Part shown: in pieces, positions 1-5,677 of the stretch
Numbering within the stretch: the stretch's first letter is position 1
How the letters are laid out: every line of letters begins with the position of its first letter
Source: an uncultured Pseudomonadota bacterium
GTDB lineage: Bacteria > Desulfobacterota_B > Binatia > UBA9968
Direction: 5' to 3'
Assembly: GCA_946478635.1 (NCBI GenBank)
Contig: CAMLCX010000280.1
Span: 1 to 6,597 of the forward strand
Length of the DNA stretch: 6,597 nucleotides
The notes under the pieces: model-generated
Database searches by the model: none
The model's input: the letters and a program-made list of their open reading frames with translations, nothing else
Told to the model about the DNA's origin: nothing
Position numbers and translations under genes: made by a program

Positions 1-11
1 TCTTCCGATCT
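1..11. other. Residual Illumina adapter end at the contig edge
   Basis: The first 11 bases, TCTTCCGATCT, equal the 3' end of the common Illumina adapter (…GCTCTTCCGATCT). The next codons, GAC GTG TTT, already read as plausible protein (Asp-Val-Phe leading into HMNLENV), so genuine insert probably starts at base 12. The string GACGTGT at 12-18 also occurs in an adapter, so the exact border is uncertain by a few bases. This is a sequencing artefact, not biology. Confidence 0.8.
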
Positions 12-2472: not shown

Positions 2473-2548
2473 AGGGAGCCAGACCTTGAAGAAAGCCGAT
2501 TTCCGAACTTTTTACCGGGACGCGCATGCAGTCGCGCGTCGGATACCG
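2473..2548 (+). repeat. Direct repeat, left copy (5' end of the AhpD-like gene)
   Basis: Bases 2473-2534 match 3404-3465 at 58 of 62 positions, offset 931. Weaker similarity runs on to about 2548 with an extra TA in this copy. The match covers the Shine-Dalgarno GGGAG, the TTG start and 16 codons. All four differences are third-position and silent (GAT/GAC, TTT/TTC, CGG/CGC, GCA/GCG). Confidence 0.9.
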
Positions 2549-2593: not shown

Positions 2594-2889
2594 GAAAAGC
2601 AGGAATCGCTGATTTAAAGAACAACCTGTCTCGCTACCTCGATCAGGTGAAGGGCGGCGAATCCATCCTCGTGTTGGATCGAAACCAACCAGTGGCCCAA
2701 ATTATACCTCTGCAAAAAGCGACGGGGAGCGGTGTTCGGGATGATAGCCGGATCGCACGTCTTGAACGCAAAGGGCTCATTCGGCGCGGAACTGGTGACT
2801 CCGGGAAGTGGCTTGCGAAGCGCCGTTTAGTGAAAGTGCGTGGAAGTGTGCTGCAAGACTTATTGGACGAGCGACGGAGTGGCTGGTGA
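2590..2889 (+). CDS. Type II antitoxin, Phd/YefM (VapB-like) family
   Basis: 99 residues. The N-terminal half is the Phd/YefM DNA-binding fold: KAGIADLKNNLSRYLDQVKGG (about 3-23), then ESILVLDRNQPVAQIIPL (24-41), the standard strand pair. The C-terminal segment, with RIARLERKGLIRRG and SVLQDLLDERRSGW, matches the part that wraps and inhibits a VapC toxin. It should neutralise the downstream PIN ribonuclease and repress the shared promoter. No Shine-Dalgarno precedes ATG 2590, and the predicted transcript starts there, so a leaderless mRNA is likely. The stop overlaps the toxin GTG by 4 nt (GTGA, 2886-2889), implying translational coupling. Confidence 0.9.
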   Translation: MRKAGIADLKNNLSRYLDQVKGGESILVLDRNQPVAQIIPLQKATGSGVRDDSRIARLERKGLIRRGTGDSGKWLAKRRLVKVRGSVLQDLLDERRSGW

Positions 2890-3314
2890 GGTTTTGGGAC
2901 ACCTCTGCAATTATTCCCTTATTCCTTACAGAGCGCGGCTCTGCGAAGGCTGAAGTCTGGTATCGTGAAGATTCCGACGTCGTTGTGTGGACTTTGACGC
3001 GCATCGAAGTATTTTCCGCATTGGCCCGTCGACGACGTGAAGAGCCAAGCGCGGCATCGCGACTGCTTGCCGTTCGTCGAGATTTGCTAAGGCTTTGGCA
3101 ACAATGGTCGGAAGTGACGGCAATCGAGATCGTTCGCCGCCATGCGGAGAGAATAGTTGAAACGCATCCGCTAAGAGCTGCCGATGCCCTTCAGATCGGG
3201 GCCGCGTTAACTGCCGCGGACGAGGATCCGACCAGTATTGAATTTGTTACTTTCGACCGAAATCTCGCCGAAGCAGCCGAGCGAGAAGGCTTTCGAGTGC
3301 TAGGGCACGAGTGA
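2886..3314 (+). CDS. vapC: VapC-type PIN-domain ribonuclease toxin
   Basis: 142 residues, a single PIN domain of normal VapC length. The acidic metal-binding set is visible: D5 in RFWDTSAIIPLF, E41 in LTRIEVFSAL, D100 in LRAADALQIGAAL and D124 in FVTFDRNLAEAAEREGF. VapC toxins cleave RNA (commonly tRNA or rRNA) and are held inactive by their antitoxin; the target here is unknown. An upstream ATG at 2808 would extend the protein within the antitoxin coding region. GTG 2886 is preferred because it begins right at the family N-terminus and overlaps the antitoxin stop by 4 nt. All four acidic residues are intact, so the toxin is probably active. The symbol is given at family level only. Confidence 0.9.
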   Translation: MRFWDTSAIIPLFLTERGSAKAEVWYREDSDVVVWTLTRIEVFSALARRRREEPSAASRLLAVRRDLLRLWQQWSEVTAIEIVRRHAERIVETHPLRAADALQIGAALTAADEDPTSIEFVTFDRNLAEAAEREGFRVLGHE

Positions 3315-3403: not shown

Positions 3404-3477
3404 AGGGAGCCAGACCTTGAAGAAAGCCGACTTCCGAACTTTCTACCGCGACGCGCATGCGGTCGAGTGTCTGACCG
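3404..3477 (+). repeat. Direct repeat, right copy (5' end of the complete AhpD-like gene)
   Basis: This is the partner of 2473-2548. It contains GGGAG at 3405-3409, the TTG start at 3417 and the first codons of the complete gene. Similarity to the left copy begins abruptly at 3404, upstream of the Shine-Dalgarno; the bases before it do not match. Confidence 0.9.
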
Positions 3478-3677
3478 AGCGCGAGAAGATGCTCATCGGT
3501 CTCACCGTGGCGATGATGCGGCTCTGCGATCCCTGAGTGGACCGGCGCCTTGCGGACGCAAGGAAAGCGGGGATGACCGAAGAGGATCTCGATGCGGCAG
3601 TCGATGTGATCGCGGCGGTGGACGCCGGCGTGCTGCAGTCGCTGAATCAGAGAGTGAAGCAAAGAAGCAAGAGCTAA
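3417..3677 (+). CDS. AhpD/carboxymuconolactone-decarboxylase-like protein with in-frame TGA at the CxxC site: candidate selenoprotein (CxxU)
   Basis: 86 codons from TTG 3417 (GGGAG 7 nt upstream) to TAA 3675-3677, with one internal TGA at 3534-3536, codon 40. The frame reads through without shift: LTEREKMLIGLTVAMMRLCDP (19-39), TGA, then VDRRLADARKAGMTEEDL (41-58) and DAAVDVIAAVDAG. This is the CMD/AhpD helical pattern, in which the second half of the redox motif C37-D-P-x40 should be Cys. TGA differs from TGC by one base, but a SECIS-like hairpin follows at the right distance, and AhpD-like selenoproteins are known from metagenome surveys. Against a canonical AhpD enzyme: the usual catalytic Glu position aligns with M25 and the His four residues after the second Cys is R44. 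Likely role: thiol/selenol redox chemistry. Alternatives are a fresh nonsense mutation or a base error. Confidence 0.65.
3537..3563 (+). promoter_or_regulatory. Candidate bacterial SECIS element
   Basis: After the TGA, 17 nt (3537-3553) lead to a GGAC loop (3554-3557). The loop is closed by a perfect 6-bp stem, CCTTGC (3548-3553) with GCAAGG (3558-3563). Two more G-C pairs (3545-3546 with 3567-3568) are possible across a small internal loop. Bacterial SECIS hairpins sit just after the UGA with the apical loop about 16-37 nt on and a G among its first two bases; the E. coli fdhF loop starts at nearly the same distance. The bulged U and GU loop bases of fdhF are not present. Confidence 0.5.
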
Positions 3678-4037: not shown

Positions 4038-4059
4038 GGGGTCAAGAATTTAAGGGGTG
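4028..4059. repeat. 16-bp tandem repeat, two units
   Basis: AAGAATTTAAGGGGTC at 4028-4043 is followed directly by AAGAATTTAAGGGGTG at 4044-4059, one mismatch in the last base. It truncates the HicB-like ORF. The TTAAGGGGTCA style recalls ends of REP/RAYT-type elements, but no transposase or clear REP hairpin is present, so its class is unknown. Confidence 0.8.
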
Positions 4060-4061
4060 AC

Positions 4062-4127
4062 CTGTTCTCGCTGTTCTCGTGCGCTGTTCTCGTGACTGAC
4101 CCTGTTCTCTGTCTGTTCTCTGTTCTC
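4062..4127. repeat. Irregular cluster of six CTGTTCTC octamers
   Basis: CTGTTCTC starts at 4062, 4071, 4084, 4102, 4113 and 4120, with spacings of 9, 13, 18, 11 and 7. The first and fourth copies are preceded by TGACC/TGACCC. On the minus strand the unit reads GAGAACAG. The spacing is too uneven for a simple microsatellite or CRISPR. It may be slippage debris or a cluster of protein-binding sites. Confidence 0.75.
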
Positions 4128-4203
4128 CTGTAAGAACGACAAACTTCTCTGGTCGATTCGAGATTCTCAGTTAGCGTAGCCTGATCGATCCTGATTCCAG
4201 GTA

Positions 4204-5336: not shown

Positions 5337-5677
5337 TTAGTAAAAGCAATAGACCATCTGAGCGATGGCGGCTTCGCGGTTACCCAGGCTTTCCATGGTT
5401 TCCTCATAGAGCTGCTGCGCCCGAGGCGCCGGTCCTCGCAGCCGCGACACGTTCTTGACGACAACGGTCCATTCATACGAACCGCGGCGGATCACCAACC
5501 TATCGCCGGTGCGGATGATACGGCTGACTTGGCTCGATCACCGTTTACTTCGACTTTGCCGCCGCTGACGGCGTCCGCTGCGAGCGATCGGGTTTTGAAA
5601 AAACGCGCGGCCCAAAGCCATTTGTCGAGTCTGATCTCCGCATCCATGTGTTTGTCGTTCAACGGCGACCAACTCAT
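5337..5677 (-). pseudogene. hslR: S4-domain RNA-binding protein, Hsp15/HslR family, broken by a one-base frameshift
   Basis: The first frame from ATG 5677 gives [18 protein letters not shown] (16-33) and [13 protein letters not shown] (39-51), the S4 core. That frame then drifts and stops at 5492. The next frame over continues the family from 5522: [38 protein letters not shown] and a TAA at 5337. Restoring one base near 5524-5525 (for example reading AGC between tca and cgt) joins them into about 113 residues, near the usual 100-135. Hsp15 binds stalled 50S subunits with peptidyl-tRNA after heat stress. It follows surE by 9 nt, so likely one operon. An internal ATG at 5647 may be the true start. 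The break may be real or a sequencing error. Confidence 0.8.

Follow-up and report, generated by a model that had tools for sequence, protein, structure and literature searches.

A TGA-containing gene that encodes a CMD/AhpD-like protein

The gene at positions 3417-3677 on the forward strand of the window (the whole 6,597-nucleotide stretch of DNA that was analysed) contains an in-frame TGA and is almost certainly a selenoprotein gene rather than a broken gene. The UGA at codon 40 is very probably decoded as selenocysteine (Sec), yielding a CMD/AhpD-fold protein with a CxxU motif. A selenocysteine reading had been proposed in an earlier note on this DNA, and it is now supported by a TGA shared by 21 of 21 sequences, an invariant SECIS-like hairpin, selection past the TGA, the existence of Cys homologues and the Sec machinery of related genomes.

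The gene starts with TTG and comprises 86 codons followed by TAA. Its translation is LKKADFRTFYRDAHAVECLTEREKMLIGLTVAMMRLCDPUVDRRLADARKAGMTEEDLDAAVDVIAAVDAGVLQSLNQRVKQRSKS, and the only in-frame TGA is codon 40, at 3534-3536, in agreement with the frame described previously. The context of the TGA in the product is MMRLCDP-U-VDRRLADARKAG, and the redox motif C-D-P-U is encoded at 3525-3536 (forward strand), with TGC for Cys37 and TGA for Sec40. The earlier note had placed the TGA inside a C-D-P-x motif, and TGA was found at this codon in all 21 sequences. A ribosome-binding-like GGGAG at 3405-3409 (forward strand) precedes the TTG start. GGAG is present no more than 22 nt upstream of the gene at 21 of 21 loci, and the codon aligned with the start is ATG, GTG or TTG at 20 of the 21; locus L054 has TCA at this position, with an ATG two codons earlier. 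When Cys was substituted for Sec, the Pfam CMD model (PF02627) matched residues 9-70 with a score of 39.7 bits (cut-off 23). The match crosses the TGA, consistent with the previous description of the 46 codons past the TGA as CMD-type.

Conservation of the TGA and of the sequence beyond it

Twenty close copies of the gene, each carrying one TGA, were found in 19 of the 148 genomes of the class to which genome G007 belongs; with the window, these make 21 distinct sequences, in all of which the TGA is at codon 40. The next-best matches in the class have at most 37% identity, except one partial match at 49%. A scan of genome contigs returned 11 loci, nine of them aligning over essentially the whole protein, and the TGA was present in nine of nine. 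An even sample of 395 genomes from the phylum contained two close-family copies, both among those already known, together with remoter CMD proteins, some of which have a TGA of their own. Genome G122 holds two copies of the gene (L058 and L059) about 20 kb apart, both with TGA and hairpin.

As judged from the aligned sequences, purifying selection on the part of the protein beyond the TGA is strong: mean dN divided by mean dS gives 0.093 past the TGA and 0.091 ahead of it, taken over the pairs with estimable dS (198 and 133 of 210, respectively). The earlier note had named an unconserved region past codon 40 as the result that would count against its reading, and the ratio of 0.093 applies to that same region.

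Homologues with Cys at position 40, and homologues with a TGA and a conserved hairpin, had both been suggested as worth seeking. The latter are the 20 further copies; the former are P0003, P0006 and P0007, the P0003 cluster standing for 85 sequences. There are at least 235 database relatives, and among the 120 listed, 72 stop at residue 39 and 21 begin directly past codon 40, which shows that gene callers cut the selenoprotein gene in two at the TGA, as had been anticipated. A further 23 of the 120 span position 40, with Cys in nine, Trp in eight, Arg in five and Gly in one; four were left unsorted in this count. As given in the protein records, position 40 is Trp in P0014-P0016 and Arg in P0017 (labelled Entotheonella). 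A single base change can separate TGA from a codon for Cys, Trp, Arg or Gly.

The SECIS-like hairpin

A SECIS-like hairpin, CCUUGC-GGAC-GCAAGG, is located at 3548-3563 (forward strand). The bSECIS rules, as set out in a figure legend of PMC13188914, are a loop of 3-9 nt, a stem of 4-16 bp, a G in the first two loop positions, a distance of 16-37 nt from the UGA and an MFE of at most -7.5. All 21 sequences fall within these limits, with the loop GGAC, a stem of 6 bp, 17 nt between UGA and loop, and -7.7 kcal/mol. The folding energy is ordinary (z -0.67; 49 of 200 shuffles fold equally well), and 11 of the 209 TGA triplets of the window, the target among them, are followed by hairpins with stems of 6 bp or more that satisfy the remaining SECIS rules. 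As neither the energy nor the occurrence of the hairpin is exceptional, the RNA argument rests on synonymous-site conservation.

Codons 44-49 (CGC CTT GCG GAC GCA AGG) show no nucleotide difference among the 21 sequences. Codons 2-84 were screened, and 43 of them code for an invariant amino acid that has more than one codon; only seven of the 43 are nucleotide-invariant, namely Cys37 and all six of codons 44-49. The comparison is thus six of six against one of the 37 other such codons (Fisher p 1.1e-6). The 21 sequences are mutually related, yet the comparison codons sit on the same tree as codons 44-49. Covariation in the stem was looked for in 10 of the 21 sequences and none was seen, because the stem never changes. 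L092, a relative of the AhpD domain that also has a TGA, carries CCUUGC-AGUU-GCAAGG; by eye, the stem and its register are those of the hairpin in the window, and the loop differs. Rfam gave no match within the window up to E 1, and the hairpins predicted past the TGA of selD in eight genomes differ from that of the selenoprotein gene.

Selenocysteine machinery in related genomes

The 19 gene-bearing genomes belong to relatives of the window's organism. Matches above cut-off were obtained for selA in 18 of them, for selB in 17 and for tRNA-Sec in 17, the best tRNA-Sec matches scoring 73-78 bits against a cut-off of 47; selD was above cut-off in eight of the nine tested, and each selD has its own TGA. 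The corresponding numbers in 14 control genomes were one (selA), two (selB), two (selD) and five (tRNA-Sec). G140 has the TGA gene and no selA, selB or tRNA-Sec above cut-off, selB and selD are not above cut-off in G009, nor is tRNA-Sec in G005; the completeness of these three genomes is unreported. Since selA is widespread in the class (123 of 148 genomes, hence 105 of the 129 without the selenoprotein gene), the machinery is necessary but hardly discriminating evidence.

Gene neighbourhood

The window also encodes an EVE-domain protein, the product of a linked gene at 866-1276 (Pfam EVE, 130.6 bits), and a class I SAM methyltransferase with a His-rich N-terminus at 1445-2386 (Methyltransf_11, 64.5 bits), both on the forward strand. 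The methyltransferase start was set at ATG 1445; the open frame opens at GTG 1373. The neighbourhood was counted by tblastn at 20 loci including the window, L063 being left out as it has only 21 nt upstream. An EVE-domain gene is upstream of the selenoprotein gene at 19 of the 20 loci and a methyltransferase gene at 11. At the nine loci that lack the methyltransferase, 50-74 nt separate the end of the EVE match from the selenoprotein gene, and L065 has a methyltransferase upstream and no EVE match within about 8 kb upstream. The distance from the methyltransferase end to the selenoprotein gene is 22-249 nt at eight of the 11 loci and about 1 kb in the window and L001, and at L069 the methyltransferase gene overlaps the start of the selenoprotein gene by 4 nt. 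The selenoprotein gene is probably in one operon with the EVE-domain gene and, in one genome set, with the methyltransferase gene.

In the window and L001, a Phd/YefM-PIN gene pair lies between the methyltransferase and selenoprotein genes. In the window these are a Phd/YefM-type antitoxin gene at 2590-2889 (37.5 bits, Pfam cut-off 29.8) and a PIN-domain gene at 2886-3314 (40.2 bits, Pfam cut-off 23.6), both on the forward strand; the PIN-domain product would be the toxin partner of the Phd/YefM antitoxin. Ahead of the pair, at 2473-2543 (forward strand), 71 nt that are 90% identical to the ribosome-binding site and 5' end of the selenoprotein gene form a partial duplicate, without the part encoding CxxU. 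L001 has a decayed stretch with a stop that resembles this duplicate. The downstream complete copies retain the TGA and the hairpin, which suggests that these copies stayed in use.

The methyltransferase N-terminus is His-rich at eight of the 11 loci (10 to 25 His per 60 residues), the others being L008, L009 and L068 (0-3 His); in the window, the strongly His-rich segment (1445-1620) suggests metal binding. An ArsM-type arsenic role for the methyltransferase was considered and rejected. ArsM-type arsenic enzymes require Cys, and the domain has no Cys at six of the 11 loci and one to four at the other five; an ArsM function is also disfavoured by the best NCBIfam match, which is UbiE/MenG-like. 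It is conceivable, albeit doubtful, that in Binatia-like bacteria the EVE protein, the His-rich methyltransferase and the Sec-dependent CMD protein work together as a single functional module. The selenoprotein would then serve a methylation or modified-base pathway as its dedicated redox partner, and selenium would replace the AhpD relay.

Elsewhere in the window, short CTGTTCTC-like repeat units are found at 4040-4130, downstream of the selenoprotein gene. An S4-domain gene at 5337-5677 on the reverse strand consists of two overlapping frames (5492-5677 and 5337-5498), maybe split by a frameshift; the Pfam S4 match is for frame 5492-5677 only. The contig begins with TCTTCCGATCT (window 1-11), which we take to be the end of an Illumina adapter and which is likely a contig-end artefact.

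Fold, relay residues and proposed mechanism

The AlphaFold model of the selenoprotein has a mean pLDDT of 83 and a pTM of 0.61, and its best fold match is the CMD structure 3bey (TM 0.69, Foldseek E 8e-4). The family profile matched the 3bey sequence with E 3.4e-9, the CxxC of the latter aligning with CxxU.

The relay sites of AhpD are presumably the Glu 12 residues ahead of the first Cys and the His four residues past the second. Both had been reported as replaced in the window's protein (M25 and R44), and the replacement extends to the 20 sequences of the close family, in which position 25 is Met or Ile and position 44 is Arg. A tree was built from the close family and 39 further rows, among them L043, a mis-extracted stretch. 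Glu is present at -12 in seven of the 39, all seven with His at +4, and L053 has the His without the Glu. The Cys homologues P0003, P0004, P0006 and P0007 have Arg44 and no His44, and P0009 has His44. As Arg44 also occurs in Cys homologues, the link between Sec and the missing relay is not a strict one.

Eight other TGA-bearing rows of the tree cluster on their own (83/82), and the branch that separates them from the close family (88/80) also bears CxxC rows. In a tree of few columns and long branches, this is a hint, not proof, that Sec was gained independently. In a second CMD-like group (L049, L079, L080, L083, L084, L088 and L094), C-x-P-TGA comes with a hairpin in almost the same position. 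The L049 and L079 pieces reach 30-33 bits with GSU3128 (cut-off 110) and 35-44 bits with MduS (cut-off 380), and the group may be a further selenoprotein subfamily that lacks its own model.

SelB and tRNA-Sec very probably read the UGA at codon 40 as Sec, directed by the hairpin at 3548-3563. In the proposed mechanism, Sec40 would occupy what we assume to be the position of the second, peroxidatic Cys of AhpD. In AhpD the second Cys is activated through a Glu/His relay, and selenols are deprotonated at neutral pH; a selenol would therefore need no activating base and the Glu/His proton relay would be dispensable, which could explain Met/Ile25 and Arg44. The sequence of events that appears somewhat favoured is an attack of Sec40 on a peroxide or disulfide, after which Cys37 would resolve the product as a selenenylsulfide. 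The protein is likely to function as a Sec-based peroxidase or thiol oxidoreductase, and it may serve the EVE-domain protein and the methyltransferase as a redox partner or protector.

Alternative explanations

An in-frame TGA could also arise by nonsense mutation in a pseudogene or by sequencing error, and the 71-nt remnant of the selenoprotein gene indicates that gene decay occurs at this locus. However, an identical TGA in the window and all 20 copies from 19 genomes, with a dN/dS of about 0.09 beyond it, makes such an origin extremely improbable. The UGA might instead terminate a 39-residue protein, with a second protein restarting after it, or be read as Trp; predicted pieces of both kinds exist in the databases, ending at residue 39 or beginning past codon 40 as counted above, and Trp is the residue given in eight of the 120 listed relatives. 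The codon after the TGA is GTG in 15, GTA in two and ACG in three of 20 sequences, so there is no conserved restart, and the Pfam CMD match runs across the TGA. TGA is a normal stop in the window, since it ends the methyltransferase, Phd and PIN genes alike. Termination with restart and decoding as Trp are accordingly very improbable together, and decoding as selenocysteine explains these observations best.

A different alternative accepts the selenoprotein but assigns it another role, as a partner or sensor of the EVE or methyltransferase protein instead of a free peroxidase. The frequency of both genes upstream (EVE at 19 and methyltransferase at 11 of 20 loci), the 4-nt overlap at L069 and the absence of the AhpD relay residues all point this way, as does the fact that NF045649 and NF041537, which stand for known methyltransferase-AhpD CxxU fusions, rank among the protein's three best NCBIfam matches. 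The CxxU motif and CMD fold, however, suggest redox catalysis, and nine of the 20 loci have no upstream methyltransferase. A partner or sensor role is thus possible but on the unlikely side, and a Sec-based peroxidase or thiol oxidoreductase is preferred.

Comparison with known systems

AhpD-like selenoproteins had been described in the earlier note as known from metagenome surveys, and they are indeed listed in three publications. These are a CMD domain-containing CxxU selenoprotein from the Sargasso Sea in 2005 (PF02627, four sequences; PMC1088965), AhpD-like 2 from GOS in 2008 (pfam02627, 70 sequences; PMC2398784) and the CMD/AhpD-like CxxU selenoproteins of a 2026 review (PMC13188914), whose table gives MBW1767730.1 as representative for its CMD-like CxxU entry. 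The Sargasso and GOS proteins share with the one described here the Pfam domain, the CxxU motif and a bacterial origin; compared by description rather than by sequence, they differ in that the available text describes no EVE/methyltransferase neighbourhood for them. The idea of a divergent, perhaps undescribed subgroup accordingly holds in part: the kind is well known from those publications, and a separate subfamily within the known AhpD/CMD CxxU selenoproteins is supported by sequence comparison, because no NCBIfam model reaches its own cut-off with the 86-residue protein and the next class matches have the low identities given above. Some catalogued CMD/AhpD CxxU sequence may belong to the subfamily.

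As far as the searches reach, the subfamily, the absence of both AhpD relay residues and the conserved EVE/methyltransferase neighbourhood are new. A search for selenoproteins in Binatota found no paper in the literature covered, and one for selenocysteine or selenoproteomes in Binatia, Rokubacteria and Entotheonella gave nothing relevant among the matches listed; among those listed for AhpD, CXXU and selenocysteine, none was on the subfamily by title. In the available main text of an EVE-domain study (PMC7641849), 'AhpD' and 'carboxymuconolactone' are absent and 'selen' occurs once, and in that of a deep-Sep study (PMC12013277) 'AhpD', 'CMD' and 'Binat' are absent. The analysis contributes a well-supported selenoprotein subfamily, split by annotation pipelines, from a lineage represented here mostly by metagenome-assembled genomes, and the gene neighbourhood may point to the function of the selenoprotein.

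The GSU3128 family (NF041047), given in a table of PMC13188914 as a remote homologue of AhpD with CxxU, is similar in length (84 positions) and motif, and the protein scores 25.5 bits to it against a cut-off of 110. In ArsM/AhpD (NF041537) and MduS (NF045649) an AhpD-like CxxU domain is fused to a methyltransferase, whereas the genes are separate here, and the scores are 36.5 of 510 and 37.8 of 380 bits, respectively. Methyltransferase-AhpD fusions were reportedly described by Haft and Tolstoy in 2025. The 64-residue L092 piece matches the AhpD domain of the ArsM/AhpD selenoproteins with 119.6 bits (the cut-off of 510 being for the whole fusion), and its SECIS-like stem is in the register of the hairpin described here. 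TIGR04169, the arsenosugar biosynthesis-associated peroxidase-like family, is a related domain to which the protein scores 37.4 bits (cut-off 120); the relative L081, which scores 91.5 bits to TIGR04169 as a 64-residue piece, has CxxC, unlike the CxxU found here.

The protein also scores below the cut-offs for AhpD proper (15.4 against 191.95 bits for TIGR00777 and 22.4 against 27.8 bits for TIGR00778), and at the positions presumed to hold Glu (-12) and His (+4) it has Met/Ile25 and Arg44. The Methanobacterium protein O27018 (PDB 3bey), with 33% identity in the structural match at TM 0.69, has CxxC, and His at the position of Arg44. Mycobacterium tuberculosis AhpD (1knc and 1gu9 among the weak Foldseek matches) shares the CMD fold and has CxxC in place of CxxU, with what we take to be the relay Glu and His where the subfamily has Met/Ile and Arg; the subfamily lends itself to a test of the idea that Sec can replace the AhpD Glu/His relay.
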